NCBI GenBank assembly: GCA_013298025.1
Contig: JAAFJE010000002.1
Span: 124,001 to 188,000 of the forward strand
DNA length: 64,000 nucleotides
Reading direction: 5' to 3'
From: Cytophagales bacterium
GTDB taxonomy: Bacteria > Bacteroidota > Bacteroidia > Cytophagales > Spirosomataceae
The translations under genes were made by a program, and so were the position numbers. Positions 1,947 to 21,146 of this stretch are shown one piece after another (the stretch's first letter is position 1; each line of letters opens with the position of its first letter). The notes beneath the pieces are model-generated. The model saw nothing but the letters and a program-made list of their open reading frames with translations. It searched no databases and was not told where the DNA came from.

Positions 1947-2006
1947 CGAAGTTTATACTATGGTTAAATATTGGATAATATTTTTATTGGCTAAAGAAGT
2001 TTAAAA

Positions 2007-2056
2007 ATGAGTGCTTTAGTGAAAGAAAGTGCTGTTTCAATCACTAAAAAACTCAT
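2007..2056 (-). promoter_or_regulatory. Long hairpin between kduD and the pectinase gene
   Basis: 16-bp arms at 2007-2022 and 2041-2056 pair with only two mismatches around an 18-nt loop. On the minus strand the hairpin is followed by TTTTTAAAC. It could be a kduD terminator about 170 nt after the stop, or a leader structure or attenuator about 60 nt before the pectinase start. No other gene is visible in the 278-bp gap (1947-2224). Confidence 0.6.
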
Positions 2057-2224
2057 GTACAACAATTATCAAGTGGTTAGGTAACATCCAAGGTTTAGAG
2101 GTTGCTCCCCAAAAAACTAATTAATAGAACTGTGTGCTCAAACTCAATTATCTATCCTTATAAACATATAAGCGCTGTAAAATTGGGATGATTGGTCTAT
2201 CCCAAAATTGTAGTATTTGTAGTC

Positions 2225-2995: not shown

Positions 2996-3149
2996 GGAGT
3001 AATAAATTAAGGTTTAAAATGTATATTGACTTTTTTAAAGAATTATTCTTAGTATATACCAATGCTAAAGGCGTTTGGTGTTGTCGAAATTAGAGCGGAT
3101 AAAAAGCGTGGGCAAATTTTAGGATGAATATTTTTATGCAATCGTTGTC

Positions 3150-3161
3150 GGCAACGTTGCC
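3150..3161. promoter_or_regulatory. Candidate LacI-family operator, perfect 12-bp palindrome
   Basis: GGCAACGTTGCC is a perfect palindrome with the central CG step typical of LacI/GalR operators. It sits in the divergent 292-bp region between kduD and the lacI-type gene, placed to control both. Binding is inferred. Confidence 0.5.
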
Positions 3162-3209
3162 AAAACACTTTCATTTTTGATTTATTTTATATAATTTAGT
3201 ATATTATCT

Positions 3210-3226
3210 TGAAAGTAGTACTTTCA
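3210..3226. promoter_or_regulatory. 17-bp palindrome near the lacI-type promoter
   Basis: TGAAAGTA-G-TACTTTCA has perfect 8-bp arms around one base. It ends about 24 bp before the candidate -7 element of the regulator gene, so a bound protein would cover the -33 region. It may be an autoregulatory site. Its sequence differs from the 3150-3161 palindrome. Confidence 0.4.
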
Positions 3227-3249
3227 TACATAAATTTACAAGAGAGGTA

Positions 3250-3257
3250 TATCTTTG
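3250..3257 (+). promoter_or_regulatory. Candidate Bacteroidota -7 promoter element for the LacI-type gene
   Basis: TATCTTTG matches the Bacteroidota TAnnTTTG consensus 31 bp before the start codon. No clear TTTG -33 element lies at the usual distance. Confidence 0.4.
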
Positions 3258-3287
3258 TAGAAAATTGGACAAAAACAAGACGATATT

Positions 3288-4304
3288 TTGGAAACGGCAA
3301 CCATAAAAGACATAGCAAAGGCACTGAATCTGTCAACTTCTACTGTATCACGGGCATTGCGAGGCAGCTACGAAATCAATCCTGAAACCAAACGGATTGT
3401 GTTGGAATGTGCCGAAAAACTCAATTATCGACCCAATCCCATTGCCTTGAGTTTGAAAGAAAACAGAAGTAGGGCTATCGGAGTGATTGTACCTGAAATA
3501 GATAACCCCTTCTTTTCGCAGGCCATCAATGGCATCGAAGCGATTGCCTACAATCGGGGCTACCATGTAGTGATTTTTCAAAGCCACGAGTCGTATGAGC
3601 GTGAGTTGGTAAATGTGCAACACTTGCTTGCAAGGCGTGTCGATGGCGTACTGATTTCGCTGTCGGGACAAACCAACAACTACGAGCATTTGCATGGCTT
3701 ACAAGAAAAAGGCGTGCCATTGGTTTTCTTCGACCGCTTTACCGATGCCATTACTACGCACAAAGTAATTGCAGATAATTTCAAAGGAGCTTTTGAAGGG
3801 ACAGAACATTTGATTTTATCGGGGCGTAAAAAAATTGCTCACTTGGGAGCATCTTCTTTTCTTTCTATTACCACCGAGCGAATTAAAGGCTATAAGGCAG
3901 CCTTAGAAAAATACAATATTCCTTTCGACGAAAGCCTGATTCGGTATTGTAATTTTAGCATTCAAGAAATGGAAACGATTATTGACGATTTGCTATCAGA
4001 ATCGAATCCGCCTGATGCCATTTTTACGGTAAGCGACCGCCTCGCTATGGCGTGCTTGACCATTTTAAAAGAGAAGCATATTGCTATTCCGAAAGATATA
4101 GCCGTGATGGGCTTTACCAATCTCAAAGTAGCCTCATTGCTAGAACCAGCCTTTACGGCAGTGGTACAACCTGCCCTTGAAATGGGACAAAGAGCCGCCG
4201 AATTGTTGTTGGATTTGGTTGAAAAAAAATCGAAAGCCCCTACCAATTTCCAAACGATTCGCCTGCCTACAGAGTTGGTTATTCGGAAATCAACGGCGTT
4301 GTAG
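3288..4304 (+). CDS. LacI/GalR-family transcriptional regulator
   Basis: 338 aa. Residues 4-50 form the LacI helix-turn-helix with hinge: ATIKDIAKALNLSTSTVSRA, then a YRPNP hinge start near residue 46. Residues about 60-335 are the periplasmic-binding-protein-like effector domain with IGVIVPEIDNPFF. No in-frame ATG lies close upstream, and the HTH begins right after the chosen start, so translation appears to begin at TTG. The gene is divergent from kduD with two palindromes between them. It probably represses the pectin genes in response to a galacturonate catabolite; the effector is not known from sequence. A strong terminator follows at 4362. Confidence 0.9.
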   Translation: METATIKDIAKALNLSTSTVSRALRGSYEINPETKRIVLECAEKLNYRPNPIALSLKENRSRAIGVIVPEIDNPFFSQAINGIEAIAYNRGYHVVIFQSHESYERELVNVQHLLARRVDGVLISLSGQTNNYEHLHGLQEKGVPLVFFDRFTDAITTHKVIADNFKGAFEGTEHLILSGRKKIAHLGASSFLSITTERIKGYKAALEKYNIPFDESLIRYCNFSIQEMETIIDDLLSESNPPDAIFTVSDRLAMACLTILKEKHIAIPKDIAVMGFTNLKVASLLEPAFTAVVQPALEMGQRAAELLLDLVEKKSKAPTNFQTIRLPTELVIRKSTAL

Positions 4305-4361
4305 GCGAATTTTCGCCTCTTGTATATGCTGAAATACCACTGCGTAGCCATAAGAATCCAC

Positions 4362-4412
4362 TTCCTCCTCTAGTCTTAGCAGTTACGACAACTAGAGGAG
4401 GAATATTTTTTT
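4362..4412 (+). terminator. Rho-independent terminator after the LacI-type gene
   Basis: 13-bp perfect arms (4362-4374 and 4391-4403) with a 16-nt loop, followed by TATTTTTTT. Confidence 0.85.
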
Positions 4413-4475
4413 AATGATGAACCCATGGTAACGAGAACAACAAACAAGTAAGATGCGATAAATGCTTCATGCCTT

Positions 4476-4830
4476 GATGCCCTTGTTGGAGTTATCTCCA
4501 ACAAGCTATGCGTCAGCAACAAACCCAACTTTCATGCCCTTGTTAGAGTTATCTCCAACAAGCCATGCGTCAGCAACAAACCAAACGTTAGTGCCATTAA
4601 CTTAATTTTTTTACGCCCTCGTTCATGCCCTTGTTAGAGTTATCTCCAACAAGCCATGCGTCAGCAACAAACCAAACGTTAGTGCCATTAACTTAATTTT
4701 TTTACGCCCTCGTTCATGCCCTTGTTGGAGTTATCTCCAACAAGCTATGCGTCAGCAACAAACCAAACGTTAGTGCCATTAACTTAATTTTTTTACGCCC
4801 TCGTTAGAGTTAGTTCCAACAAGACAAGCA
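4476..4830 (+). repeat. Tandem REP-like palindromic repeats (about 91-bp period)
   Basis: Each unit carries CTTGTTGGAG-TTAT-CTCCAACAAG, a 10-bp stem with a 4-nt loop, or a variant with one stem mismatch. A conserved tail follows (GCGTCAGCAACAAACC and TTAACTTAATTTTTTTACG). Units start at 4533, 4624 and 4715, exactly 91 bp apart. A shortened copy precedes them at 4476 and a degenerate one follows near 4801. They lie directly upstream of a RAYT-type transposase gene, whose expected substrates are such hairpins. Confidence 0.88.
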
Positions 4831-4870
4831 TCTGAAATAAATCAAATTTTAGTACTACAAACTTAATGCT

Positions 4871-5392
4871 ATGAATCATCACTATATACAGTTTTTTACA
4901 GCTACAATTCTTTGGTGGAAGCCTTTGCTCAAACCTGATAAGTATAAGCAAATCGTTATTGATAGTTTGAAATTCTTGGTTGAAAATAAGCGAGTAAAAG
5001 TATATGGCTTTGTGATTATGCCAAATCATATTCACATAGTCTGGAAAATCAATGAAAACTATTTATTGAAAGATGTACAACGAGATTTTTTGAAATATAC
5101 CGCTCAACAAATCAAATTTGATTTAATAAAGAATCATCCTGCTGTTTTATCCTATTTTGAAGTAAATCTAACTGACCGACAATACCAGTTTTGGGAAAGG
5201 AATCCATTAAGTATAAACTTATACTCAAGAAAAGTCATTGAACAAAAGCTATCCTATATTCATGCTAATCCATTAAAAGGAAAGTGGCTGCTGGCAAATA
5301 GTCCTGATAAATATTGGTTTTCATCTTATCGTTTTTGTGAAATGAATATTGATGATTTTGGATTCTTAACTCATTATCTTGAGGATAGTTAG
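4871..5392 (+). CDS. REP-associated tyrosine transposase (RAYT, Y1/IS200-like)
   Basis: 173 aa with the Y1 transposase fold. The metal-binding HUH motif is PNHIHIVW (51-58), the likely nucleophile is Tyr129 in LSYIHANPL, and the C-terminal FSSYRF resembles the RAYT WSSYR motif. Family members cut and join single-stranded DNA at REP hairpins and are usually single-copy, host-tamed proteins. The gene is bracketed by direct REP units on the left (4476-4830) and an inverted copy on the right (5399-5441), a REPtron-like layout. Length and motifs look intact, so it may be active. The terminator and promoter are not clear. Confidence 0.87.
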   Translation: MNHHYIQFFTATILWWKPLLKPDKYKQIVIDSLKFLVENKRVKVYGFVIMPNHIHIVWKINENYLLKDVQRDFLKYTAQQIKFDLIKNHPAVLSYFEVNLTDRQYQFWERNPLSINLYSRKVIEQKLSYIHANPLKGKWLLANSPDKYWFSSYRFCEMNIDDFGFLTHYLEDS

Positions 5393-5398
5393 TGGCAA

Positions 5399-5441
5399 GT
5401 TGCTGACGCACGTCTCGTTGGAGATAACTCTAACAAGGGCG
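5399..5441 (-). repeat. Inverted REP-like copy downstream of the RAYT gene
   Basis: Read on the minus strand, this matches the upstream units (CCCTTGTTAGAGTTATCTCC and then GCGTCAGCAAC), in opposite orientation to the 4476-4830 block. The gene is therefore flanked by inverted REPs. Confidence 0.8.
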
Positions 5442-5447
5442 GAAAAA

Positions 5448-5868
5448 CCCCTAATTACAATCAAGAAACAAGCATTTGCAGTAAGAAAACAACTAATTAC
5501 AATCAAGAAATAACATCTGCATTTAAGAAAAGCCTTGTTACAATCAAGAAACAAGCACTTACAGTAAGAAAACAGCTAATGACAATCAAGAAACAACATC
5601 TAAATTTAAGAAAAGCGTAATTACAATTAAGAAACAAGCATTTACAGCGAGAAAACAGCTAATTACAATCAAGAAATAACATCTAAATTTAGGAAATGGA
5701 TAGTTGCAATCAAGAAATACTATATTGCAATAAAAAATGAGCAATTAAAATCAAGAAACACCAACTAAAATCAAGAAATAAGCAACTAAAATAAGGAAAT
5801 TGACAATTGTTTTCGAGAAAAGACTATTTGTACATAAGAAATGGATAGCTACAATAAGAAAATAACCA
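5448..5868. repeat. Array of about twenty degenerate 21-bp repeats
   Basis: Units of 20-23 bp share an AAGAAA core about every 21 bp, for example TAATTACAATCAAGAAACAA and CATTTACAGTAAGAAAACAG. Four unit types recur in order, giving a higher-order period near 84 bp on the left, and the array decays to the right. Read on the plus strand, part of it encodes heptads of the form LTIKKQx, as in the segment LVTIKKQALTVRKQ, but stops and the lack of a start argue against a gene. Phased A-tracts at two helical turns would predict bent DNA. It lies between two REP copies. Function unknown. Confidence 0.8.
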
Positions 5869-5874
5869 TCTTTT

Positions 5875-5963
5875 GATGCCTTTGTTGGAGTTATCTCCAA
5901 CAAGCTATGCGTCAGCAACAAACCAAACGTTAGTGCCATAAACTTAATTTTCCAACGAGGGCG
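5875..5963 (+). repeat. Further REP-like copy, right of the 21-bp array
   Basis: It contains the perfect stem (TTGTTGGAG-TTAT-CTCCAACAA) and the full tail of the 91-bp unit. It ends in CCAACGAGGGCGG, a fragment that reads as the opposite orientation. Confidence 0.8.
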
Positions 5964-6041
5964 GTAAATTTTGTCGAGAAATATCACTAGCATGATAAAT
6001 ATATTGATTACAAGCTTTTTAAATCAAAAATACTACTTACT

Positions 6042-6743
6042 ATGAACTCATTATTCAAAATTACCCTAGGCTGTTACTTGTTCGCCTACGCCTTTTGCTG
6101 TCATGCACAAACAAATACATTTATGGTACTAAAAGCAAAGTCTGGTGTAAAAACAAAGCAGGTTCATATTGCGTCGCTAGATGCTCATAATAAATATGTA
6201 TCTAAATTTAACGATTGTAGCATAAACCTCATTGAAAAGAACGAAACATCATATTTGTTGTGTATCTATGCTAAAAATAATCAGTTGATTTACAAAAGTA
6301 GTTGCCAAGGTATATCCCAAATTTATGAAGATTCCGTAGGTATTTATTTGTTAGAATATTCATTGTTTACCGAAGACGGACACACCGAAGGTAAGATTAT
6401 CACTTTTGATGCTGAACAACAACGCTTACTAAAAAGTAAATATAGCTATGCCAACTGCACAAATCCCATGCGATTTGATGGTAAACTTTGGGTAATTTCT
6501 GAGATGAAATTACTACAATTCAACGCCCAACTAGCTGTTGAATCCCGTAGAAAAATAGATTTATACAAGTCGAATAAGGAAGTCACAGCAACTTACGCAG
6601 ACACGTATAGGTTTTATGGGTTAGATAATGAAGGGAACGAAATAAGTGTAAATTTTACGCCTTATTGCCCCCAAATAGCATATAAAAAATATACAGGACA
6701 GCTCAATGTTCATGCCTCTCGCATTCATATTCTTTTAAATTAA
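6042..6743 (+). CDS. Secreted protein of unknown function (intact copy)
   Basis: 233 aa with an N-terminal signal peptide (hydrophobic residues 4-20, cleavage near CHAQT). No domain is recognised. The body alternates short hydrophobic strands (YLLCIYAK, YRFYGLDN), suggesting a beta-rich, possibly propeller-like periplasmic or surface protein. From 6381 on, its sequence lies inside a 1165-bp block that recurs at 16880, where only the last part of the gene is present. This copy is therefore the original. It converges with the photolyase fragment, 14 bp away. Confidence 0.7.
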   Translation: MNSLFKITLGCYLFAYAFCCHAQTNTFMVLKAKSGVKTKQVHIASLDAHNKYVSKFNDCSINLIEKNETSYLLCIYAKNNQLIYKSSCQGISQIYEDSVGIYLLEYSLFTEDGHTEGKIITFDAEQQRLLKSKYSYANCTNPMRFDGKLWVISEMKLLQFNAQLAVESRRKIDLYKSNKEVTATYADTYRFYGLDNEGNEISVNFTPYCPQIAYKKYTGQLNVHASRIHILLN

Positions 6744-7545
6744 TACCTTCAAGGCAATTACAACGCATCTAATTGGCTCAAATACATTTCAGCTTGTTGT
6801 AAAAGCTCCTTTTTTTGTTGCGCTGGCATTTTATCGAGCGTTACATAAGCCATACCTATGCGTGGATTCCGTTGAAGTTTACTTCTGTTGCGTTCGTAAA
6901 AATGCCAATAAAGTGAATTGAAAGGACAAGCCTTTGCTCCTGTTTTTTGTTTGTTGTCATAAAAACAAGAGCTACAATAATCACTCATTTTATCAATATA
7001 GTTTGCCGAAGCGGTATAAGGTTTTGAGCCAACAATACCACCATCGGCATATTGGCTCATGCCACGGGTATTGGTGATTTCTACCCATTCAATGGCATCA
7101 ATATAAATGCCCAAATACCATTTGTCCACTTCATCAGGATGAATGCCAGCTAACAAACAAAAGTTGCCAATCACCATTAATCGTTGAATATGATGGGCAT
7201 AAGCCCTATTCAACGATTGACCTATACAATGCTTGAGACAATTCATTTTTGTTTTGCCTGTCCAGAAAAATGAAGGCAGCGAATGCTGGTGTTCAAAGAA
7301 ATTTAACTGCTTGAAATGGGGCATTTGGTGCCAATAAATGCCTCGCATATATTCTCGCCAACCAATAATTTGTCTTACAAATCCTTCAATTTGGGCAATA
7401 CTGATACTATCTTGGTTTGCTTGCCAATGAGCTACTGCTGTACTTACGATTTCGATAGGTGAAAGTAATTTAAGATTCATTGAAAACGACAAACGGGCAT
7501 GATACACCGACCAATATTGCATTGCCATCGCATCTTCGTAAGTGC
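6381..7545 (+). repeat. Long direct repeat, left copy (flanks fructan island)
   Basis: 1165 bp identical to 16880-18044 at a constant offset of 10499 bp. Only about three substitutions and no indels were seen by eye (for example at 6387 and near 7381 and 7428). It holds the 3' part of the secreted-protein gene and the 3' half of the photolyase gene. Confidence 0.95.
6758..7528 (-). pseudogene. Truncated FeS-type photolyase (C-terminal half)
   Basis: The 256 codons equal residues 254-509 of the intact photolyase at 17257-18786. Homology stops at 7545, where island DNA begins, so the N-terminal antenna half is missing. The methionine at 7528 is an internal one (MAMQYW). The C-terminal FAD/FeS part, including the CSSC and ACPFN cysteines, is retained, but without the N-terminal domain the product is unlikely to work. 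Confidence 0.9.
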
Positions 7546-7720
7546 AACCTCAAGTCACAAATGTAACAATATTGATATTTTGTATTACAATCATTATATC
7601 ATTTATTAAAACACCAAGCACATCATCAAACCAACAGACTGACTATAAGAAACTTATAAATATGTATCAAAATTACAAGTAATTGAATGATTACTAAAAT
7701 CTGCTTTTAAAACTTTGATC

Positions 7721-7728
7721 TAATTTTG
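7721..7728 (+). promoter_or_regulatory. Candidate -7 element ahead of the sugar-porter remnant
   Basis: TAATTTTG fits TAnnTTTG 29 bp before the ATG at 7757. No matching -33 TTTG was seen at the usual spacing. It may still serve the SusC operon if transcription runs through the remnant. Confidence 0.35.
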
Positions 7729-7756
7729 GTTCATCAAAAAACTTAATAAGGTTGAC

Positions 7757-8032
7757 ATGAATCAAAATCTTCAAATATTTTTCTGGTCGCTATCTGCTAC
7801 ACTTGGAGGTTTTCTTTTTGGCTTCGATACAGCTATTATTTCTGGGGTTGGACAAACCCTTCAAACACTTTATTACAAAAACCCTATTGTGTGCAAGCCT
7901 AGAGGTGAAAAAAGAGTATTACTTTTTATGAATACCAGTTTCTTTGAGCATACTAGCTATAAGATAAGTGTAATGAATTTTCTTGTACTATGGATTCATT
8001 TACAACTACTTATGAAGGATGAATCTCCTTAA
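7757..8032 (+). pseudogene. N-terminal remnant of an MFS sugar porter
   Basis: The first about 35 codons carry the start of a sugar-porter first helix and its signature (LGGFLFGFDTAIISG, like XylE/GLUT proteins). After QTLQTLYY the sequence loses all similarity, and the frame ends at 91 codons with no further transmembrane helices. The normal length is about 450 aa, so nearly the whole transporter is deleted. In complete fructan loci a fructose importer often sits beside SusC, which suggests the island lost it. The open tail is probably chance. Confidence 0.75.
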
Positions 8033-8126
8033 TTTCAAAGAGGCTAGGCTTATAAAAAACCTTTTAAAGAATTGATACTTAAACAATACAATAAGAACAA
8101 ATAATATAACATTAACTAATCAATTT

Positions 8127-11100
8127 ATGTTTGCCAAAAAATTAATACCAATTATTTTATTCAGCCTTATTGCTAATACAGTGTTGGCTCAAAAAATTAT
8201 CAAAGGTGTTGTAAAAGACAATAATTCAAATGAACCATTGATTGGAGCGAGTATAAAGGCATTGGGGAAAAATATAGGAACCTTGACTGATATAAATGGG
8301 AACTTCGAATTACGTGTACCAGACAGTACAACTACCTTGGCTACTTCATATACTGGTTATCAAGAGCAAAAAGTTTCAATTAGCAGTAGAAGCTACGTAA
8401 TAGTTCTATTAAATGCTGGAAAGCTGCTTGGAGAGGTAGTCGTGGTAGGCTATACCACTGAAAAAAAGAAAGACTTAACTGGTGCCGTAGCCGTAGTTAA
8501 ACTAGATGAGGTGAAAGATTTACCTACAGGAAATGTTATGAAAAATATTCAAGGAAGAGTTGCAGGAGTTTCTGTATTAACTGATGGTTCACCAGGATCT
8601 GCCGCTACTATTCGAATCAGGGGATCAGGCACATTGAATAATAATGACCCACTTTATGTGATTGATGGAGTACCTACAAAAAATGGTATGCATGAACTCA
8701 ATCCGGCAGATATTGCGTCTATTCAGGTATTGAAAGATGCTGCATCGGCTAGTATTTATGGTTCAAGAGCAGGCAATGGTGTCATTGTTATTACCACCAA
8801 AAATGCGAAGTCCGAAGGCGTTAAAATAACATTTGATAGTAACTTGTCAATGCAGCAATACGGCAACCGGTTACAACCTTTGAATGCACAGCAACGAGGT
8901 GAAGTATTCTGGCAAGCGAATGTTAATTCTGGTTTTAAGCCCACCTCGCCACTTTATAATTTTCAATGGAACGGAGATTTGAAAAATCCTATTTTGGGTA
9001 GCGTAAGTACCAATGAATACCTAGATGCTAGTAAAACTATGATTCCAGCTGATACCAGATGGTTTGACGAAATTTCGCAACAATCCTTTATACAGTCCTA
9101 TAATTTAGGGGTAAGCAAAGGTGGTGAATTGGGTAAATCCTTTTTCTCAGTGGGTTACTATAATCATGACGGAATCATCCGTGAAACTAATTTTAGAAGA
9201 ATAAATGTAAGATTGAATAGTGACTATTTATTGCTAAAAAAGAAACTTAAGATTGGTCACAATTTTCAGATTTCATATCAAGAGGAAAGTCAAATTCCTG
9301 TAGATCAAATACTATTTACATCATTGGTGCAACACCCCTTGGTACCTGTTCGTACAATTAATGGGGGGTGGGGAGGACCTATTTCAGGGATGACCGATAG
9401 GCAGAATCCCGTTCGACTTATTGAAGATAACAAGCAAAATCAATATTCGTATATAAGACCATTTGGGAATGTTTATTTAGAAATATATCCGTTTAAAAAT
9501 TTAACATTAAGGTCAAATTTCGGAGTTGATTATAGTATATTTTATTCAAGAGGACTCCAGAAAAGATACACATCTGGATTCTTAACTGAACCCAATAACC
9601 GTTTAAGTTCTAATGCAAATGTAGGAGGTAATTGGATATGGTCTAATACAGCAAACTATCATCTCGAAAGCGGTAATCATGAACTTAATTTTTTGTTTGG
9701 AACGGAGGCAATTAAATATAAGCAAGAGTTTTTTGGTGCAACACGCCAAGACTTTCTAATTGAAGATTTAAACTTTACTTATTTAAGTTCTGGTTCATCT
9801 GACCAAACAAATTATGGAGGTGGGCTAAAATGGTCATTGATGTCATACTTTAGTAAAGTTAACTACAATTTCAAAAATAAGTATCTACTTTCCGTAACTC
9901 TGAGAAGAGATGGAAGTTCACGTTTTGGTCCTAATAATCGATTCGGTAATTTCCCAGCCGCTTCACTGGGATGGCGAATTTCCGAAGAACCTTTCTTGAA
10001 TAATCTAACAAATAAAGGTATTGATCTTAAATTAAGAACAAGCTGGGGTATTAACGGAAATCAAGAGGTTAATCCATTGGCTCAATATAATATTTACCTA
10101 GCTAATTATGGGAAAGAAGATGCTCTATTTGATAATCCCAGACCACCAGTTTTTGTTCCGAAACTTGGTACGGCTTATGATATAACGGGAACAGATATAG
10201 GCAATTTACCGTCTGGCTATATTAATGTGCAGCAGGGCAATCCTAATTTGAAATGGGAAACGACTACACAACTAAATTATGGACTAGATTTATACATGAA
10301 TAAATTCAGCCTTTCTATTGATTATTTTAAGAAAATCACTTCAGATATTTTATACCTACGTTCACTTGTATCGGCTGTCGGAGAGGCGAGCAGTCAGTTT
10401 GTAAATGGAGGTTCTGTATCAAATGAAGGTATTGAAATTGTTAGTTCATACGATGGAAAAGTTGGAGCAGTGAGCTATGCGATAAACGGAAACCTCGCTA
10501 CTATTAAAAATAGAATTATTGATATCCCGAAAGATTTTTTTATCCGTCTTCCTTTGGCAAGTAATGTATCAAATGATGCTCAAATAGAATTGATAGGGGG
10601 AAAAACAATAGGACAATCACTCAATTCCTTTTATGGATATGTAGCTGATGGGCTTTTCCAGAATCAAACTGAAGTAGATGTCCATGCTACTCAGTCAGGT
10701 AAAGGCATTGGCAGAATTCGTTATAAAGACTTAAATAATGATGGCGTAATTGACAATAAAGACCAGACCTTTATAGGGAAAGCAGATCCATCTCTGGCTT
10801 TTGGTTTAAACCTAAAATTAGAGTATAAATCATTTTCATTAGAAACGTTTTTTCAAGGTGTGACAGGTATTCAATATTATAATAGCTATAAAACCTATAC
10901 AGACTTTGCCTCTCTATGGCCTGGAACAAATTGGGGCATACGAACGCTTAATGCTTGGTCAGAAAAAAATCCAAATTCTACCATACCACGTCTTACTTCC
11001 ATTGATTTAAATAATGAAGGAAGAGTTTCATCCTATTTTATTGAAAATGCTTCGTACTTGAAGCTTAGAAATCTACAGTTGGCTTACCAAATGCCTAAAG

Positions 11101-11264
11101 CTATTGTTGAAAAATTAAATTTCAAGAGTGTACGAGTTTATGTTCAAGGGCAAAATTTATTTACCATCAAAAGTAAACAATTCACTGGACCAGATCCTGA
11201 AAATCCAAACTTTGCATTTCCAATCCCAATCGTTTATGCCATTGGCACAAACTTAACATTCTAA
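8127..11264 (+). CDS. susC: SusC-family TonB-dependent oligosaccharide transporter
   Basis: 1045 aa. Signal peptide at 1-21 (ending VLAQ), a carboxypeptidase-D regulatory-like domain at about 23-105, the SusC motif GEVVVVGYTT, a plug domain with IRIRGSGTLNNNDPLYVIDG and ADIASIQVLKDAASASIYGS, then a beta-barrel to the C-terminal aromatic residue. It imports oligosaccharides across the outer membrane with SusD as lid and TonB as the energy source. The adjacent GH32 makes fructan oligosaccharides the likely cargo. The 124-bp gap to susD is consistent with one operon. There is no sensor or anti-sigma gene nearby. Confidence 0.95.
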   Translation: MFAKKLIPIILFSLIANTVLAQKIIKGVVKDNNSNEPLIGASIKALGKNIGTLTDINGNFELRVPDSTTTLATSYTGYQEQKVSISSRSYVIVLLNAGKLLGEVVVVGYTTEKKKDLTGAVAVVKLDEVKDLPTGNVMKNIQGRVAGVSVLTDGSPGSAATIRIRGSGTLNNNDPLYVIDGVPTKNGMHELNPADIASIQVLKDAASASIYGSRAGNGVIVITTKNAKSEGVKITFDSNLSMQQYGNRLQPLNAQQRGEVFWQANVNSGFKPTSPLYNFQWNGDLKNPILGSVSTNEYLDASKTMIPADTRWFDEISQQSFIQSYNLGVSKGGELGKSFFSVGYYNHDGIIRETNFRRINVRLNSDYLLLKKKLKIGHNFQISYQEESQIPVDQILFTSLVQHPLVPVRTINGGWGGPISGMTDRQNPVRLIEDNKQNQYSYIRPFGNVYLEIYPFKNLTLRSNFGVDYSIFYSRGLQKRYTSGFLTEPNNRLSSNANVGGNWIWSNTANYHLESGNHELNFLFGTEAIKYKQEFFGATRQDFLIEDLNFTYLSSGSSDQTNYGGGLKWSLMSYFSKVNYNFKNKYLLSVTLRRDGSSRFGPNNRFGNFPAASLGWRISEEPFLNNLTNKGIDLKLRTSWGINGNQEVNPLAQYNIYLANYGKEDALFDNPRPPVFVPKLGTAYDITGTDIGNLPSGYINVQQGNPNLKWETTTQLNYGLDLYMNKFSLSIDYFKKITSDILYLRSLVSAVGEASSQFVNGGSVSNEGIEIVSSYDGKVGAVSYAINGNLATIKNRIIDIPKDFFIRLPLASNVSNDAQIELIGGKTIGQSLNSFYGYVADGLFQNQTEVDVHATQSGKGIGRIRYKDLNNDGVIDNKDQTFIGKADPSLAFGLNLKLEYKSFSLETFFQGVTGIQYYNSYKTYTDFASLWPGTNWGIRTLNAWSEKNPNSTIPRLTSIDLNNEGRVSSYFIENASYLKLRNLQLAYQMPKAIVEKLNFKSVRVYVQGQNLFTIKSKQFTGPDPENPNFAFPIPIVYAIGTNLTF

Positions 11265-11388
11265 TATTAAATACATTAACACCAAACATATCACTGGAAA
11301 ATCAGTAACCATTCTCAGAACAAATCGGGAGATTAGTTGAAAATCAATCGTATTAGAAGAGGTAATTAAATTTTAAAAACAAAACTTT

Positions 11389-13107
11389 ATGAGAACTAAG
11401 TATATACTTTTAATCATTCAGATTTCTATATTTTTTTCTGGTTGTACTGATTTCTTGCAACAAGCTCCTCAAGCAGTACTTGCAGACGAAACGTTGAACA
11501 CACGTGAAAGTATAGAGGGGCTTGTGAATGCTGCTTATGCCTCACTTGCTAATGACCATTACACAACACCAGTCATGCTTTGGCCATATGGAGATTTACG
11601 GTCTGGTGATGCACACAAGGGGGGTGATGGACCAGCTGATATTGCGATCTATCATGCCATGGAAATCTTTACAACTTTGCAGTCAGACATGAGTACTTAT
11701 GCCCCCTCTACACTTGGGGATATCAGTAATAAAAAATGGGAGAGGCAATACATATTTATATCAAGAATAAACAATGCTTTAAGAAGACTTAATGACTACA
11801 AAGGGTCGAATTATCCTGAAAAAACTCAACGTATCGCAGAGCTAAGATTTTTGAGAGGCTATATGTATTTTGACCTGAAAATTCTCTACAAATTCGTTCC
11901 ATATATTACAGAAGAACTTTCAGTAGAGGAAATTGAAAAATTAAGTAACAGGGCATTGACAGATTTTGAGTTATGGTCAAAAATAGCTGAAGAGTTCAGG
12001 TTTGCCTCAGAAAACCTGCCTGGGACTATAGGAGATAAAGGAAGACCTAATAAGTGGACGGCAAAGACAATGCTTGCAAAAACATTGCTTTACCAAGCCT
12101 ATAAACAAAATGAAAATCATCAGGTAGAATCTATCGACTCGAAAAATTTAGAGCAGGTAGTCAAATTAGTTGATGAAGTTACAGAGTCTGGTTTGTATGG
12201 CTTAGAAACAGACTTTGCTAACCCATTCCGTTTTGTTTTTGAAAATGGTAAAGAAGCCATCTGGCAAATTCAGAGGTCTCATAATGATGGCACATCAATA
12301 GGGAATCTTGACTATTCGGCTATGCTAAGCTATCCGATGAGTAGTGAATATGGTTGCTGTTGGTTTCATATTCCTACGCAAAACCTAGTTAACTCTTTCA
12401 AAACTGACAATAATGGATTACCAACAGCTAATTTTAATGATTCGGATTTGAATCTTACAAAAGACAACGTTGACCCTAGATTAGACCATACAGTCGCACA
12501 ATCTGGCAAGCCCTTCAAATATGAGCAATCCCTGATTTACCAAACGAATACTTGGGCAAGACAACCTAGTATCTATGGCCCATACTCTTCCCTGAAAGAA
12601 GTAGAATCTCCAAAATGTTCATGTTTTGAAAAAATTCCTCCATTTATGTCAAGCTCAAAAAACACAATAATAGTTCGCTATGCAGACCTTTTACTATGGA
12701 AAGCAGAGGCATTGATAGAATTAAATCAGCCCAATGCTGGAGTTGAAATAATAAATAGAATACGAGCGAGAGCTGGAAATAGTACAAATCTTCTGAAAGA
12801 TAAGAACGGGAATCCATTGAGCATCTACAAGGTCGGTTTATATGGCAATCTTTCAAAAGATCAAGCAAGAGTGGCACTTAGAAGAGAAAGACGATTAGAG
12901 TTGGCAATGGAAGGACACCGTTTTTTTGACCTCGTAAGATGGGGGATTGCTTCAGAATATATGAATGAATATTTTATTAAAGAAAAGTTAAGAAGGGATC
13001 ATTTAAAGAGTGCCACATTTATTAAAGGAGTACATGAATATCTTCCAATTCCACAAATTCAGATCAATTTGAGTAAAGGGCTTTATATTCAAAATCAAGG
13101 TTATTAA
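11389..13107 (+). CDS. susD: SusD/RagB-family outer-membrane glycan-binding lipoprotein
   Basis: 572 aa. Lipoprotein signal with lipobox FSGC (Cys19). The N-terminal SusD segment TDFLQQAPQ is followed by TPR-like helices (AELRFLRGYMYFDL). The C-terminal SusD motifs include RYADLLLWKAEALIELNQ, INRIRARAG and RRERRLELAMEGHRFFDLVR. It binds glycans at the surface and caps SusC. The binding pocket cannot be read from sequence, but neighbours suggest levan or inulin fragments. It lies between SusC and the DUF4960-like gene in the same direction. Confidence 0.95.
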   Translation: MRTKYILLIIQISIFFSGCTDFLQQAPQAVLADETLNTRESIEGLVNAAYASLANDHYTTPVMLWPYGDLRSGDAHKGGDGPADIAIYHAMEIFTTLQSDMSTYAPSTLGDISNKKWERQYIFISRINNALRRLNDYKGSNYPEKTQRIAELRFLRGYMYFDLKILYKFVPYITEELSVEEIEKLSNRALTDFELWSKIAEEFRFASENLPGTIGDKGRPNKWTAKTMLAKTLLYQAYKQNENHQVESIDSKNLEQVVKLVDEVTESGLYGLETDFANPFRFVFENGKEAIWQIQRSHNDGTSIGNLDYSAMLSYPMSSEYGCCWFHIPTQNLVNSFKTDNNGLPTANFNDSDLNLTKDNVDPRLDHTVAQSGKPFKYEQSLIYQTNTWARQPSIYGPYSSLKEVESPKCSCFEKIPPFMSSSKNTIIVRYADLLLWKAEALIELNQPNAGVEIINRIRARAGNSTNLLKDKNGNPLSIYKVGLYGNLSKDQARVALRRERRLELAMEGHRFFDLVRWGIASEYMNEYFIKEKLRRDHLKSATFIKGVHEYLPIPQIQINLSKGLYIQNQGY

Positions 13108-13132
13108 TTTTTTAATTTTAAATTTTACTATT

Positions 13133-14395
13133 ATGATTTTTTCAAATTTATTCAAAACAAAATGGATGTCTCTTTTGGGCATTCTATTCCTTTTTGCCTC
13201 TTGTGATAAAAGCGAGACGGTGGTGCCAGGAGAGGCATCTATTATTACATTCTCAATCAATGGACAAAATGCAACGATTGATGAAAGTGCCAAAACAATA
13301 ACAATTGAAGTTGCCCCAAGTGTTGACATTACGGCAATTGTTCCGATTATATCTGTTTCCAGTGGAGCAACCACAATACCAGCCACAAATACCAAAATCA
13401 ATTTTTCACAACCAGTAACTATAACGGTGACAGATAAAAGTGGAACTGTAAAGAATACATATACTGTAACCGTTACAAAAAAAGTAGTTAAGCGAATGGC
13501 ATTTATTGGATGGGCAGCTAAGAACACTACTGAAGCGTGGAATGCACTGGATGGTACTGATTATACTTTAGATGATGACCAGGCCGCTTCTGAATGGTTT
13601 TTCAAAAATATGACTTCAGAGACCGTTGAAACGTATTATCTATCTTTTGAAGAGGTTGCCGCAGGAGCTGACTTGAGTAAATATAATGCTATATGGATTC
13701 AGTTTGACGGAGGCTGGTGGGGGGGCGAAGTAGCCCAATTTCCAAACAACCAAAAGCATTGCATTCTATCATCAAAAGGTATTCAATTTGATACACCTTG
13801 CAATGATTTAGCTAATAAATTCACAAGCAATATTAAAAAGTACTATAATGCAGGAGGTAATATACTACTAGGTAATTACGCAGGTATGCTCGTAGATGAA
13901 ATTGGAGTTGTTAGTAATGCGGATGCTCAACCAAATAATACTTTTGGGGGTGTAGGTGTTGAAACTTGCTGTACTGCTGATAACTGGGGTACAAGATGGG
14001 CCGCTGACCCTAAACATCCTATTTTTGATGGAGTAGTAACAGCTACAGATCCAAATTGTACTGGACCTTTCTACATTATGCTTGAGAGTGGGTCTCAAAG
14101 AAAGAACCGTTCTGCACAGTATAACCTTAATTTTGGTCCTTGGGCACCAAATGGCGATGCAGACCCCTTGGCAGATAGGAAAAAAGCTTGGCAAACTATG
14201 GTTGGTGGTATAATTCTTCAAGAAAATTGTGGAGGAAATGAAGCACAAACTGTGCTATGGGAAGCTAAAGGAGGCAAAGGTAGAGTAGTTGCTCATTTAA
14301 GCGGATTGTACGATTGGTATGTTGGAAATTCAGGTCCAGCAAATAACAATATCCGTATTTTAACCAAAAATACACTTAATTTCTTAGCACAATAA
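13133..14395 (+). CDS. DUF4960-like surface lipoprotein of a fructan locus
   Basis: 420 aa, starting 25 bp after susD. Lipobox FASC (about residue 24). Residues about 30-120 form an Ig-like DUF5018-type region (ITFSINGQNATIDESAKTIT, then TITVTDKSG and YTVTVTKK). From about 122 (RMAFIGWAAKN) a domain resembling DUF4960 follows, with aromatic clusters such as FDGGWWGGE and DNWGTRW that could bind sugar. Proteins of this type recur next to SusCD and GH32 in fructan loci. The likely role is surface fructan binding at the SusE/F position. The domain assignment is from memory of the family and should be searched. Confidence 0.7.
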   Translation: MIFSNLFKTKWMSLLGILFLFASCDKSETVVPGEASIITFSINGQNATIDESAKTITIEVAPSVDITAIVPIISVSSGATTIPATNTKINFSQPVTITVTDKSGTVKNTYTVTVTKKVVKRMAFIGWAAKNTTEAWNALDGTDYTLDDDQAASEWFFKNMTSETVETYYLSFEEVAAGADLSKYNAIWIQFDGGWWGGEVAQFPNNQKHCILSSKGIQFDTPCNDLANKFTSNIKKYYNAGGNILLGNYAGMLVDEIGVVSNADAQPNNTFGGVGVETCCTADNWGTRWAADPKHPIFDGVVTATDPNCTGPFYIMLESGSQRKNRSAQYNLNFGPWAPNGDADPLADRKKAWQTMVGGIILQENCGGNEAQTVLWEAKGGKGRVVAHLSGLYDWYVGNSGPANNNIRILTKNTLNFLAQ

Positions 14396-14596
14396 TTTCA
14401 ATCAGGGCAAATGCCTGATAAAATTTTATTTTTTAAAACTTATATTATTCAAATTGTAAAAGCTGGCAAATAGGCCTCTATAAAATTTTATAATTAGAAA
14501 CATAGAGACCCAAACCAATGAATATTTTTAAAATTTGAATATTTGTTATTTAAAATTTTGTTCATGCGTTTGTCCTACATTTTAACTTAGTAGGTC

Positions 14597-16846
14597 ATGC
14601 AAAATATTTTTAGAAATAATATTCTAATCAATGCCTTTACAGGTGTATTGATTTTGATGTTTTTCATTTTCTCAAAAAGTGTACTTGGTCAAGATTATAA
14701 AGAATTATACAGACCTCAAATTCATGTTTCTCCAACTACTGGATTTATGGGAGACCCCAACGGTCCCTTAAAATATGAAGGTAAATATAGATTTTACTGG
14801 TGGGGGCATATGGATTCTAATGACCTTATTTATTGGAGAGAAATTAACAAAGATGTTCTGAATGGAACACCTTCAGGTTTTGGAGAATGGAGTGGCTGTG
14901 TTGTCATTGATACTGCCAATACCAGTGGTTTGAGTCAAGGAAGTAATGTGCCTAGAATCGCCTTGTTTACACTGAATAATAATTCAAATGGTAATCAGTC
15001 TGTGGCAGCTGCGGTCAGTCAGAATGCTGGATCATTTTCATTTTTAGATAAAAATCCAGTTCTACAAACAAACGAGAAGGATTTCAGAGACCCTCAGGTT
15101 TTTTGGCATAACCCCACAAAAAAATGGATTATGATTATCACAAAATCTGACCAAAGAACCATTAGGTTTTACTCTTCTAAAAATCTGTTACAGTGGGAGT
15201 ACATGAGCGAATTTAAAGGTAGAGGAGCAGTAAAAGAAGTTTGGGAAGTACCAGATATGTTTGAAATTCCTGTTAATGGTGATAATAAAAACAAAAAATG
15301 GGTTTTAACTTGTGGCATGGGTCCCAATCGAATGCAATATTGGGTCGGAGATTTTGACGGCACTAGGTTTACACTTGACACAAAGGATAACCTTTTGACT
15401 GGGAGAAATTTTCAAGGTGACGTTTTTGAAGACTTTGAAACTGATTTAAAAAAGTGGACTATTACTGGCCAAGCATTTGGGAATAGCCCTGTCGAATCAG
15501 AACTACCTGAACAGCAGGTCGTCAGTGGAAAAATGGGATTTCAATATTTGAACTCATATCATGGTAAGGATCTTTCTGTAGGATTATTACAATCTACTCC
15601 TGTCAAAATTAATCAACCCTTCTTAAATGTACTTGTTGGTGGTGGAAATACGGGAAAGGTTGGAATTCGTGTCATAATAAACCAAAATGAAATTGGATCA
15701 ACCAGAAATACTAGAAATAGTGAGCAGTTTATGTGGCGTTCAATTGATTTAAGTAAATATATTGGAGAAACAGCCATAATTGAAGTTTTTGATGAAGCTA
15801 CTGGAGATTGGGGGCATATTAATATTGATCAGATAATTTTTTCAGACGTACAACTAGAGTTGAGGCTTGAAAATGCTAACTGGATTGATTTCGGAACCGA
15901 TTACTATGCAGGAAAATCCTTACGAAATTATGACGCTGATGATAGCAGATTAATTTATATGGCTTGGATGGGTAATTGGACTTATGCTCAGAATGTACCC
16001 ACTTCCCCATGGAAAGGGTCTCAATCTTTATTTAGAGAAATGGAACTTTTATATTCTGAGAAAGAGGGATATAGTCTGATACAAAAACCTATTAAAGAAT
16101 ATTTAGTTCTGAGGAAGAGTGATAATGAGATTAATAAGACTACTTTTTCATTCAAAAAGGAATTAAAAATAAACGATTTTAGAATACCATGGAATGTAGC
16201 GGAATTCAAGATTTCATTCGAGATTACAAAAGAAAATGGTTCATTTGGTATTAAATTAGCCCAAGGTTCAGCTCAAGAGATTGAAGTCAAGTTTGATCCA
16301 CAAGCTAATTTATTAAGTGTAAATAGAAGCCAACTACCATTTAGTTTCTCAGGACTTCAAACTACAACTGCTCCAATTTTTTTAAACGGGAAAAAGGAAA
16401 TTGATTTACATATTTTTCTTGATCAAGCATCTATCGAAGTTTTTGCTAATGATTATAAAACCAGACTCTCTCTTTTAACTTTTAACGAGCCAGATAAAAA
16501 TGAAGTAAGTTTATTCAGTGAAAATGAAGCCAAAGTTAAATATTTGCACGCATGGGAATTGAAATCAATATGGAACATTATCAAAGAGGTTAAGGTTGTA
16601 TTAGCAAATGAAAAAGAGGTTATAGAAAAAACTACCATTTACCCAAACCCTTCTGGCAATTCTATTGTATGCCCATCTATTCAACCAAGAAGCAAAGTTT
16701 ATATAATTGATTTAACAGGACATATTATGGATTGTATCTTGAATGAACCTCAAACTGTTGATGTTTCAAAACTACTCCCTGGCACATATTTTCTCGTCGT
16801 TAATAATGATGGCATCTCTGAAAAATTCAAATTTGTAAAAATATGA
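14597..16846 (+). CDS. GH32 fructan hydrolase with inserted beta-sandwich and type IX sorting tail
   Basis: 749 aa. Signal peptide ends near VLGQ (31). GH32 catalytic motifs: GDPNG (52-56, nucleophile Asp53), FRDPQ (163-167, Asp165) and WEVPD (Glu217 as acid/base). An insert at about residues 277-415 interrupts the propeller after GDVFEDFETD and resembles a galactose-binding-like or CBM domain. The propeller then resumes (YMAWMGNW), followed by the GH32 C-terminal beta-sandwich (IFLDQASIEVFAND). Residues about 680-749 (IYPNPSGNSI, then LPGTYFLVV) are a type IX secretion tail, so the enzyme should reach the cell surface. The substrate is levan or inulin; endo versus exo mode cannot be decided. 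Confidence 0.93.
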   Translation: MQNIFRNNILINAFTGVLILMFFIFSKSVLGQDYKELYRPQIHVSPTTGFMGDPNGPLKYEGKYRFYWWGHMDSNDLIYWREINKDVLNGTPSGFGEWSGCVVIDTANTSGLSQGSNVPRIALFTLNNNSNGNQSVAAAVSQNAGSFSFLDKNPVLQTNEKDFRDPQVFWHNPTKKWIMIITKSDQRTIRFYSSKNLLQWEYMSEFKGRGAVKEVWEVPDMFEIPVNGDNKNKKWVLTCGMGPNRMQYWVGDFDGTRFTLDTKDNLLTGRNFQGDVFEDFETDLKKWTITGQAFGNSPVESELPEQQVVSGKMGFQYLNSYHGKDLSVGLLQSTPVKINQPFLNVLVGGGNTGKVGIRVIINQNEIGSTRNTRNSEQFMWRSIDLSKYIGETAIIEVFDEATGDWGHINIDQIIFSDVQLELRLENANWIDFGTDYYAGKSLRNYDADDSRLIYMAWMGNWTYAQNVPTSPWKGSQSLFREMELLYSEKEGYSLIQKPIKEYLVLRKSDNEINKTTFSFKKELKINDFRIPWNVAEFKISFEITKENGSFGIKLAQGSAQEIEVKFDPQANLLSVNRSQLPFSFSGLQTTTAPIFLNGKKEIDLHIFLDQASIEVFANDYKTRLSLLTFNEPDKNEVSLFSENEAKVKYLHAWELKSIWNIIKEVKVVLANEKEVIEKTTIYPNPSGNSIVCPSIQPRSKVYIIDLTGHIMDCILNEPQTVDVSKLLPGTYFLVVNNDGISEKFKFVKI

Positions 16847-16879
16847 ACTTAAAGAAACGGTTTATCCACTATATTTTTA

Positions 16880-17242
16880 CACACCAAAGGTAAGATTATC
16901 ACTTTTGATGCTGAACAACAACGCTTACTAAAAAGTAAATATAGCTATGCCAACTGCACAAATCCCATGCGATTTGATGGTAAACTTTGGGTAATTTCTG
17001 AGATGAAATTACTACAATTCAACGCCCAACTAGCTGTTGAATCCCGTAGAAAAATAGATTTATACAAGTCGAATAAGGAAGTCACAGCAACTTACGCAGA
17101 CACGTATAGGTTTTATGGGTTAGATAATGAAGGGAACGAAATAAGTGTAAATTTTACGCCTTATTGCCCCCAAATAGCATATAAAAAATATACAGGACAG
17201 CTCAATGTTCATGCCTCTCGCATTCATATTCTTTTAAATTAA
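16880..17242 (+). pseudogene. 3' fragment of the secreted-protein gene
   Basis: This repeats the last about 120 codons of the gene at 6042-6743. The 5' part with the signal peptide is replaced by island DNA. An internal ATG at 16967 leaves a 91-codon frame, but it lacks a signal peptide and probably a promoter. Confidence 0.85.
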
Positions 17243-18044
17243 TACCTTCAAGGCAATTACAACGCATCTAATTGGCTCAAATACATTTCAGCTTGTTGTA
17301 AAAGCTCCTTTTTTTGTTGCGCTGGCATTTTATCGAGCGTTACATAAGCCATACCTATGCGTGGATTCCGTTGAAGTTTACTTCTGTTGCGTTCGTAAAA
17401 ATGCCAATAAAGTGAATTGAAAGGACAAGCCTTTGCTCCTGTTTTTTGTTTGTTGTCATAAAAACAAGAGCTACAATAATCACTCATTTTATCAATATAG
17501 TTTGCCGAAGCGGTATAAGGTTTTGAGCCAACAATACCACCATCGGCATATTGGCTCATGCCACGGGTATTGGTGATTTCTACCCATTCAATGGCATCAA
17601 TATAAATGCCCAAATACCATTTGTCCACTTCATCAGGATGAATGCCAGCTAACAAACAAAAGTTGCCAATCACCATTAATCGTTGAATATGATGGGCATA
17701 AGCCCTATTCAACGATTGACCTATACAATGCTTGAGACAATTCATTTTTGTTTTGCCTGTCCAGAAAAATGAAGGCAGCGAATGCTGGTGTTCAAAGAAA
17801 TTTAACTGCTTGAAATGGGGCATTTGGTGCCAATAAATGCCTCGCATATATTCTCGCCAACCAATAATTTGTCTTACAAAACCTTCAATTTGGGCAATAC
17901 TGATACTATCTTGGTTTGCTTGCCAATGTGCTACTGCTGTACTTACGATTTCGATAGGTGAAAGTAATTTAAGATTCATTGAAAACGACAAACGGGCATG
18001 ATACACCGACCAATATTGCATTGCCATCGCATCTTCGTAAGTGC
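16880..18044 (+). repeat. Long direct repeat, right copy (flanks fructan island)
   Basis: 1165 bp matching 6381-7545 with about three mismatches. The left limit is CACACC at 16880 and the right limit AGTGC at 18044. Beyond it the photolyase gene continues intact. Confidence 0.95.
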
Positions 18045-18786
18045 CAAAGTGAGGCAAACAATGTTCAACAAAAAAATGAAGTAATTGCAATGATTCACTT
18101 CGGGTAACTGGCCAAAAAAAATGTTTAGCATCCACCGAACCAATGGTTTGAATACCATTTTTTTGTAAAAGTACTTCAATATCCGAGACATCCCTATCAA
18201 ATAACAGTGGTTCAACAGGACGATGGTGTTTAGGAAGTTTTTTTCGATTATCTGCATCATAATTCCATTGTCCTGTAAGAGGCTCGTTGCCATCCATCAA
18301 AATATCATGTTTTTTACGCATCATGCGGTAAAAGCTTTCCATCAGAAAAGTCTTTTTACCTTTGAAGAAATCGGCTAATTCATTTCTGCTACTTAAAAAA
18401 TGTTCGGTGTCATATACTTTGGTCGGAATACTTAGGCTATCTGCAAACGCCTTTAGTTGTTTGTCAAGACGATATTCGTCGGGCTGTTGGTATTCAAAAT
18501 GACTAATGCCGTGCTGGGCAATTAACCAAGCTAAATTTTGGGTAAGCGATTGACTATTCTGTTCGTCGTCGAGTGATAAATACCGTAGGGCAAAACTATT
18601 TTGTTGCAGTTTTTCAGCAAAAAGACGCATAGCCGTAAAAAAGCCCAACACCTTTTGTATATGGTGCCGAACATAGTCGGTTTCTTGTCGCATTTCCATC
18701 ATGACGTACAATACATCATGTTTTTGCTGTTGAAACCAAGCATGATTTTCGTTGAGTTGGTCGCCTAGAATGAGTCGAAGAACCAT
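17257..18786 (-). CDS. FeS-type bacterial cryptochrome/(6-4) photolyase-like protein
   Basis: 509 aa. The N-terminal half (VLRLILGDQLNENHAWF) is the Rossmann antenna domain of the PhrB/FeS-BCP group. The C-terminal half binds FAD and carries the iron-sulfur cysteines, CSSCFYD and ACPFNSLYWHFYERN near residues 435-465. Family members repair UV (6-4) photoproducts using light, or act as photoreceptors. Length is normal for the group. The ATG at 18786 begins the conserved domain directly. Its 3' half is duplicated at 6758-7528. It converges on the truncated secreted-protein gene, as in the original gene order. Confidence 0.92.
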   Translation of the reverse strand: MVLRLILGDQLNENHAWFQQQKHDVLYVMMEMRQETDYVRHHIQKVLGFFTAMRLFAEKLQQNSFALRYLSLDDEQNSQSLTQNLAWLIAQHGISHFEYQQPDEYRLDKQLKAFADSLSIPTKVYDTEHFLSSRNELADFFKGKKTFLMESFYRMMRKKHDILMDGNEPLTGQWNYDADNRKKLPKHHRPVEPLLFDRDVSDIEVLLQKNGIQTIGSVDAKHFFWPVTRSESLQLLHFFVEHCLPHFGTYEDAMAMQYWSVYHARLSFSMNLKLLSPIEIVSTAVAHWQANQDSISIAQIEGFVRQIIGWREYMRGIYWHQMPHFKQLNFFEHQHSLPSFFWTGKTKMNCLKHCIGQSLNRAYAHHIQRLMVIGNFCLLAGIHPDEVDKWYLGIYIDAIEWVEITNTRGMSQYADGGIVGSKPYTASANYIDKMSDYCSSCFYDNKQKTGAKACPFNSLYWHFYERNRSKLQRNPRIGMAYVTLDKMPAQQKKELLQQAEMYLSQLDAL

Positions 18787-20313: not shown

Positions 20314-20789
20314 CCAGCAAAGTTGGAACAGGACGCAGGATTTACAAGTATTTAAACTTATCAAATATTATTTTATCAGAAAAGTTTTTCAGAGAAATTC
20401 CCGTTTTCTTTGTTATTTTTTCGACTTTCATACAATATTGTACAATTTCAAGAATCGTAGTATTATTTACAGCAAAATCAGGCTTACTAAGTTTAATTAT
20501 TCAAAGAATGTGTAAATTTCGTTTGGAAGTACGAAAATTTAATGTTAAATTTAATTAAGGAATTCGCTCAACAGCGTTACATTTTGTTAACCAAAAGAGG
20601 TAAAACAAGTAACATTTCCAAAAAGTTTGAGGCTTTGACAACCGACTTTGACCGATAAAAGTGTTGGGAAGCCTTTGTAAGCCTCAAACTTGAGCAGATT
20701 CTTCTTTTGATTCCTTGAAAGTATAGCTTTCAACAACCTAGGGCATCAAAAGAACTAATCTAATCTTTAACCTTAAACAGAGAGTGCGT
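20314..20789 (+). other. 476-bp leader region of the hibernation factor gene
   Basis: No gene is visible. The region holds a perfect 13-bp inverted repeat listed separately and otherwise AT-rich sequence. It presumably contains the hpf promoter. Confidence 0.5.
20623..20691 (+). promoter_or_regulatory. Inverted repeat in the hpf upstream region
   Basis: Arms AAGTTTGAGGCTT (20623-20635) and AAGCCTCAAACTT (20679-20691) pair perfectly over 13 bp around 43 nt, about 100 nt before hpf. No T-tract follows, so it is less likely a terminator than an operator pair or leader structure. Confidence 0.5.
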
Positions 20790-21146
20790 ATGAAATTACA
20801 GGTGCATTCAATTCACTTCGACGCAGACAAGAAGCTGCTAGAGTTCATCCAAGCAAAGTTGAACAAGTTGGATACGTTTTATGACCGAATTACAGGAGGT
20901 GAGGTGTATTTAAAGTTAGACAAAGGCGAAAGTCCAAAAATTAAAAAGAAAATGTTGGAAGTAAAAATAAGTTTGCCCGGTGCAACTTTATTTGTCAGAG
21001 AGATGGGAACAACATTTGAAGAAGCCATGGACATTGCCATCGAAGCTTTGAAAGTCCAGCTAAAAAGATTCAAAGAAAAAGTACAAGAAAAATCACTCGG
21101 TAATCGCAATACACTCTTAGAGCTATCAATGGCTACAGAAAGTTAA
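20790..21146 (+). CDS. hpf: Ribosome hibernation promoting factor, short form
   Basis: 118 aa with the HPF/YfiA beta-alpha-beta-beta-beta-alpha fold: VHSIHFDADKKLLEFI, LDTFYDRI, KMLEVKISLPGATLFVRE and the long C-terminal helix EAMDIAIEALKVQLKRFKEK. It binds the 30S subunit and silences ribosomes in stationary phase. A GTG lies two codons upstream (20784), but the ATG at 20790 begins the conserved domain and is the better start. It lacks the long-form C-terminal dimerisation domain. A terminator follows directly. Confidence 0.93.
   Translation: MKLQVHSIHFDADKKLLEFIQAKLNKLDTFYDRITGGEVYLKLDKGESPKIKKKMLEVKISLPGATLFVREMGTTFEEAMDIAIEALKVQLKRFKEKVQEKSLGNRNTLLELSMATES

Follow-up and report, generated by a model that had tools for sequence, protein, structure and literature searches.

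A foreign-looking levan/fructan-type locus between 1166-bp direct copies of a gene-pair segment in a Cytophagales bacterium

Introduction

PUL exchange among Bacteroidota is considered frequent and generally involves ICEs or plasmids; few scars left by other transfer routes can still be read. One footprint known as insertion with long target duplication was reportedly described in Helicobacter pylori by Nobusato et al. in 2000. According to the excerpted literature, it was derived from two H. pylori strains and often involves restriction-modification genes (PMC1643837), with duplications "in the order of 100 bp" (PMC3874152). For Pseudomonas fluorescens, IS481 accompanied by a large duplication has been reported, with entry at breaks as the suggested route (PMC11708052). 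Campbell integration is a second point of reference, and a third is merodiploid formation by transformation, for which the accessible text describes sister-chromatid duplication during DNA uptake, the modeled donor fragment being one that recurs in part in the host chromosome (PMC3784515). For the encoded functions, the closest described system is the levan utilisome of Bacteroides thetaiotaomicron, to which the structures 8A9Y, 8AA0, and 8AA2 belong (PMC7618045, in excerpt).

Here we analyzed a window of 64,000 nucleotides from a Cytophagales bacterium (contig C12, 124001-188000), in which a PUL-like gene block lies between two copies of a segment shared by a secreted-protein gene (S) and a photolyase gene (P). 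The locus resembles the H. pylori insertions in having its gene block between direct target copies, and differs in carrying a PUL and not restriction-modification genes (frequent, not essential, in the published cases) and in its 1166-bp duplication, roughly ten times the 100-bp order quoted in the excerpt of PMC3874152. With Campbell integration it shares direct repeats of a homologous segment and one truncated gene per side; unlike that case, no vector, replication, or mobilization gene was seen, and the donor homology would be a host fragment cut mid-gene. The merodiploid model, as excerpted, has no foreign insert (PMC3784515). The likeness to the levan utilisome lies in adjacent SusC, SusD, DUF4960 binding protein, and GH32 genes. 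The utilisome GH32 is a surface lipoprotein, whereas the island enzyme carries a T9SS tail plus an inserted module and shows no lipobox (by eye), and the island further differs by a destroyed transporter gene and by the lack of any regulator or kinase gene in the block. The footprint type is thus known from other bacteria, its metabolic cargo and length being less usual; a PUL case of target duplication was absent from the matches listed in a literature search, and a published one is possible.

Results

A near-identical direct repeat with complementary truncations. Positions 6381-7545 recur at 16880-18044; the offset stays at 10,499 throughout, and the copies differ by three substitutions without any indel (script comparison), as the sequence-only reading of this DNA had described; base 6380/16879 is identical too, which makes the repeat 1 bp longer on the left, that is, 1166 bp at 99.74% identity (blastn). 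Both repeat edges fall mid-gene, in S and in P, and the features on the two sides are as follows.

6042-6743, plus strand: S, intact secreted-protein gene, 233 aa (signal peptide by eye; ORF list)
6380-7545, no strand: left repeat copy, with the 3' part of S, the intergenic stretch, and the 3' part of the photolyase gene (script comparison, blastn)
6758-7528, minus strand: P', 256 aa from an internal ATG, lacking about the first 247 codons (aligns to residues 248-509 of P)
16879-18044, no strand: right repeat copy (script comparison, blastn)
16967-17242, plus strand: S', remnant of S without its 5' part, 91 codons from an internal ATG (ORF list)
17257-18786, minus strand: P, intact photolyase, 509 aa, DPRP family (ORF list, family match)

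The truncations are complementary, as had been proposed: the left side holds an intact S with a 5'-truncated photolyase, and the right side the reverse (ORFs). From the internal start codons onward, the shared parts of S and S' and of P and P' encode identical proteins. Since the S-P pair is legible across both copies, the two genes were probably a unit before the event, and the earlier point that recombination between the copies would give back this pair is supported.

S matched no Pfam or NCBIfam family; of the 150 family genomes searched, S was found in one, namely its own, and a search of viral contigs gave no relative. The photolyase was found in 30 of the 59 genomes searched (own included), among them all four congeners (66-69%). 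A conserved S-P adjacency was rejected, as no other ORF of the window matched within the 20 kb around the photolyase in each of these four. As for local synteny, just 22414-23730 and its neighbor 21215-22195, right of the locus, stay together in the congeners; for a third right-side gene (20742-21143), G003 was the one congener with a match, at a distance of about 36 kb. An empty S-P site was not demonstrable in the four congeners, which lack S and local synteny.

The substitutions sit at 6387 (G/A), 7382 (T/A), and 7430 (A/T). The last two are silent. The first, which is 7 bases away from the edge, replaces E with K in the broken S copy; the seven matching bases at 6380-6386 may represent microhomology at the right junction, or position 6387 a later point mutation. 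All three lie near the repeat ends, and the interior runs for 994 bp without any mismatch; for three randomly placed substitutions, the probability of an uninterrupted run this long or longer is 0.013.

A DNA search of the genome (5,439,419 bases, 53 contigs) returned two copies of the repeat. Same-contig direct repeats of at least 300 bp and at least 95% identity were scanned for in 1,244,771 bases on five contigs, about 23% of the genome (C12, C6, and C2 whole, C51 minus 718 bases, C34 minus 579, with 3270 N in C6). There were three, the S-photolyase repeat included, the second being an overlapping tandem repeat (C12, 237.8-239.8 kb). No second bracketed insertion was found in the 1.24 Mb scanned. 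The third repeat is a 727-bp stretch (99.45%) common to two adjacent caspase-like genes (by eye; G000:C6, 147275-149375), which suggests a recent duplication or gene conversion there.

No exact repeat resolved in the scanned sequence is longer than the 994-bp identical core, which exceeds ordinary short-read length, and the assembly is a draft of 53 contigs in which the 16S gene was not found (it may be masked). These points speak for an assembly error, in which S-P would be intact and the PUL would lie on a separate circle threaded through the repeat. We consider such an error distinctly improbable. Against it, the window contains no N and within-contig exact repeats of 640, 606, and 409 bp were resolved too, which means that reads or inserts bridge several hundred bases in this assembly. 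Whichever layout is right, all four junctions between repeat and flank would exist, the alternative being a separate 10.5-kb circle.

Gene content of the intervening DNA. Between the repeat copies lie the following features.

7546-16878, no strand: putatively inserted DNA, 9333 bp (script comparison, blastn)
7757-7882, plus strand: 5' fragment of a sugar MFS transporter gene, 42 residues (homology)
7883-8126, no strand: 244-bp scar between the MFS fragment and SusC (sequence searches)
8127-11264, plus strand: SusC-type TonB-dependent transporter (family match, structure relatives)
11389-13107, plus strand: SusD-family protein (family match)
13133-14395, plus strand: DUF4960 protein (family match, structure relatives)
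14597-16846, plus strand: predicted GH32 fructan hydrolase with a T9SS sorting tail (family match, motifs)

Among solved structures, SusC is closest to its counterpart in the B. thetaiotaomicron levan utilisome (sequence in 8a9y), and the DUF4960 protein matches chain T of 8a9y/8aa0/8aa2. The closest solved relative of the GH32 is an exo-inulinase (8i12). The GH32 retains DPNG, RDP, and WExPD, which we take to be the catalytic motifs; its catalytic region is split by an inserted module of about 150 residues (276-428), and the same full-length layout occurs in the nearest full locus found elsewhere (L069). Judging from these matches, we infer that the insert carries genes for all four outer-membrane components of a levan-type uptake system: SusC, SusD, DUF4960 protein, and GH32. 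The fructan locus named in the sequence-only reading is a partial PUL, with its MFS transporter truncated.

The MFS fragment shares 69% identity with the transporter encoded in the second fructan locus of the host, and the rest of the gene is lost. Within the scar we found no convincing MFS 3' remnant, no repeated or mobile element, and no exact inverted repeat of at least 9 bases; one 8-base pair (7895/8044) is at about chance level. An IS or MITE at the scar was rejected, as the 581-bp left end (7546-8126) has no convincing other copy in the genome, its matches being 73% to the start of the C51 transporter and otherwise E 0.017 or weaker. The deletion that left the scar may have occurred either before or after capture. 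Separately, a stretch upstream of both MFS starts is shared between 7720-7865 and host locus L043 (9790-9935, minus strand), at 73% over 146 bases and with CTAATTTTGGTTCATCA. This element presumably resembles the Bacteroidota -7 promoter box.

The second fructan-type locus of the host, on contig C51, comprises an MFS transporter (Sugar_tr), a PfkB kinase, SusC, SusD, and GH32, and its MFS and PfkB genes are intact. The island as a copy of this locus was rejected, with identities of 40% (SusC), 44% (SusD), and 35% (GH32). Strong GH32 domain matches outside the island were present in all five genus genomes (own included), so fructan use is probably not new to the genus. The four complete island genes may work as an uptake module, since the MFS transporter and PfkB kinase of the C51 locus would supply the parts that the island lacks. 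A roughly 180-bp repeat, in five copies at 91-98% identity, was also seen on C51 (13035-36074).

Composition and relatives of the insert. Comparison of the insert with its host found it low in GC, GC3, and codon score. Its GC content was 34.9% versus 39.6% for the contig; values as low or lower occurred in 6 of 707 equal-size contig windows, all starting at 248-253 kb, away from the island. Relative to 498 host ORFs of at least 300 aa, the four island genes fell in the lowest 2.8-7.0% for GC3 and the lowest 1.6-9.8% for codon score. S was low as well (percentile 10.0 for GC3 and 6.8 for codon score, same 498 ORFs), so that low values are not confined to the insert; the photolyase had an ordinary codon score (percentile 81.1) and a somewhat low GC3 (percentile 14.5). 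The departures of the island genes are moderate, not extreme.

The distribution of the genes was narrow in samples of the family, order, and class, which overlap and were each drawn from a larger group. DUF4960 was detected in 1 of 150 family genomes, its own, and in 8 of 390 order genomes (own included; seven above the cut-off); with the island protein as query (E<=1e-15), 6 of 395 class genomes matched, again own included. A GH32 of the island type (E<=1e-60) was found in 1 of the 150 family genomes, likewise its own. The nearest full locus found, L069, comes from another family of the order and runs MFS, SusC, SusD, DUF4960, GH32, second GH32, with identities to the island of 65% (SusC), 64% (SusD), 53% (DUF4960), and 47% (GH32). 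The true donor is not among the loci found, L069 being the best. On these grounds the 9.3-kb insert looks foreign in origin. The earlier suggestion is supported in that foreign-looking DNA lies within a convergent S-P pair, with a duplicated target.

Edges of the insert and nearby repeats. No IS, integrase, transposase, or repeated element was found at the island edges, and no tRNA in window positions 1-30000; like the repeat, the truncations, and the foreign character, this is read directly from the DNA. The ends thus show none of the marks (IS, integrase, or tRNA) of a composite transposon or ICE. Inside 7546-16878, no integrase or transposase was recognized (ORFs of at least 90 aa, Pfam), in line with the earlier statement that no integrase is present.

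Outside the repeat, 988 bp to its left, lies a REP-associated tyrosine transposase (RAYT) gene (4871-5392; NCBIfam REP_Tyr_transpos, 68.4 bits, under the 80-bit cut-off), flanked by REP-like palindromes (CTTGTTGGAG....CTCCAACAAG) in several 91-bp repeats at 4474-5963. REP/RAYT was rejected as a cause: the REP copies end at 5963, outside the repeat, and no link was seen.

Bracketing was also examined in 14 loci, each ending at about 20 kb or at the contig end. No direct repeats of at least 80 bp and at least 90% identity were found around the 13 loci of other genomes (L042, L066-L077), and bracketing as a habit of such loci was rejected. In L043, the second fructan-type locus of the host, a 178-180 bp repeat formed three pairs, all lying outside the PUL and to one side of it.

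Discussion

The reading we prefer, at even confidence, is that a 9.3-kb foreign levan/fructan locus was inserted in the S-photolyase pair with a 1166-bp target duplication by capture at a duplication junction. Repair or replication of the S-P region would produce two chromosome ends, such as those of the two sister arms, that share an overlap of 1166 bp; each end would be joined, without homology, to a linear foreign fragment, which would thereby end up at the junction of a tandem duplication in one event. We favor capture because one step gives the scar and has precedent. The insertion itself is deduced from the repeat alone; that capture took one step, that a break occurred, and in what order the events came are likewise deductions. 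The duplications of published restriction-modification insertions are about ten times shorter, which we count against capture. No real Ku was found in the genome, the sole match scoring 26.1 bits, 1.1 over the cut-off. Ku-dependent end joining was rejected, as this match is a DUF4301 protein (727.7 bits) whose protein Ku score, 23.8, is below the cut-off. Capture would therefore need another joining pathway or a replication-linked rearrangement.

Exactly the observed scar is also predicted if a single RecA crossover brought in a 10.5-kb circle with the PUL and a 1166-bp S-P fragment on it (Campbell integration), a route that we hold to be doubtful. Such a circle could come from linear fragments ligated in the cell, or from excision in a strain already so arranged. 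In E. coli conjugation, 56 of 60 Lac- clones gave a duplication-diagnostic PCR product, and the duplications of 109-950 bp in 14 sequenced clones are ascribed, in the excerpted text, to single crossover of circles missing part of the homologous fragment (PMC3240628). The circle must, however, contain a stretch of host DNA that is 99.7% identical and breaks off mid-gene on either side; it needs prior foreign-host joins, so homology alone does not explain the arrangement, and because the host fragment must first be gained, an illegitimate join is required on either route. No replication or mobilization genes were seen in the insert (ORFs, Pfam). When the repeat was compared with 72,556 plasmid records, no place covered 80% of it; 42 records had photolyase-type matches at 60-80% identity over at best 43% of the repeat, and among the matches listed, these fall on the photolyase part. 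The same records gave one DUF4960 match, at 26.7%, and SusC matches in 172 records, each best place being <60%. The Campbell or duplication-capture interpretation of the sequence-only reading fits the scar, with the qualification that a circle needs earlier non-homologous joins. Its simplest explanation, homology-driven acquisition, is not established, since non-homologous foreign-host joins are needed earlier in any case.

A Hymenobacter sp. NBH84 plasmid (L072, 105-119 kb) has fructan-type SusC, SusD, MFS, kinase, and GH32 genes adjoining two tyrosine-recombinase genes, and SusC matches were seen on further Hymenobacter plasmids (24 Hymenobacter records).

The layout might instead have arisen stepwise, by a tandem duplication of S-P followed by placement of the PUL between the copies through insertion/deletion, or by a larger duplication trimmed by deletions; taken jointly, we judge these two variants improbable. 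A small duplication without flanking repeats is described for pneumococcus in the excerpt of PMC3784515, and a separate deletion did happen inside the insert, at the MFS scar, but two to three events are needed, and PUL-like DNA is absent from window positions 18045-64000 and 1-6379 (blastn).

A further idea, highly improbable in our estimation, is that one repeat and the PUL together form a homology-addressed 10.5-kb cassette. RecA recombination between the copies would free it as a circle, and a single crossover could then bring it into any cell that has an S-photolyase pair. If so, a nutrient-uptake locus would spread within a species without integrase or transposase, and repeated excision, integration, or gene conversion would preserve the near-identical core.

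Excision at the locus is measurable by PCR, and in sister strains the locus offers a concrete place to tell capture at a duplication from circle integration. Under the preferred capture reading, the footprint known for restriction-modification genes would extend to metabolic cargo. The fresh-looking scar suggests that an uptake module arrived without a recognizable mobile element, in a host that, on this reading, already had a transporter and a sugar kinase when the module arrived.
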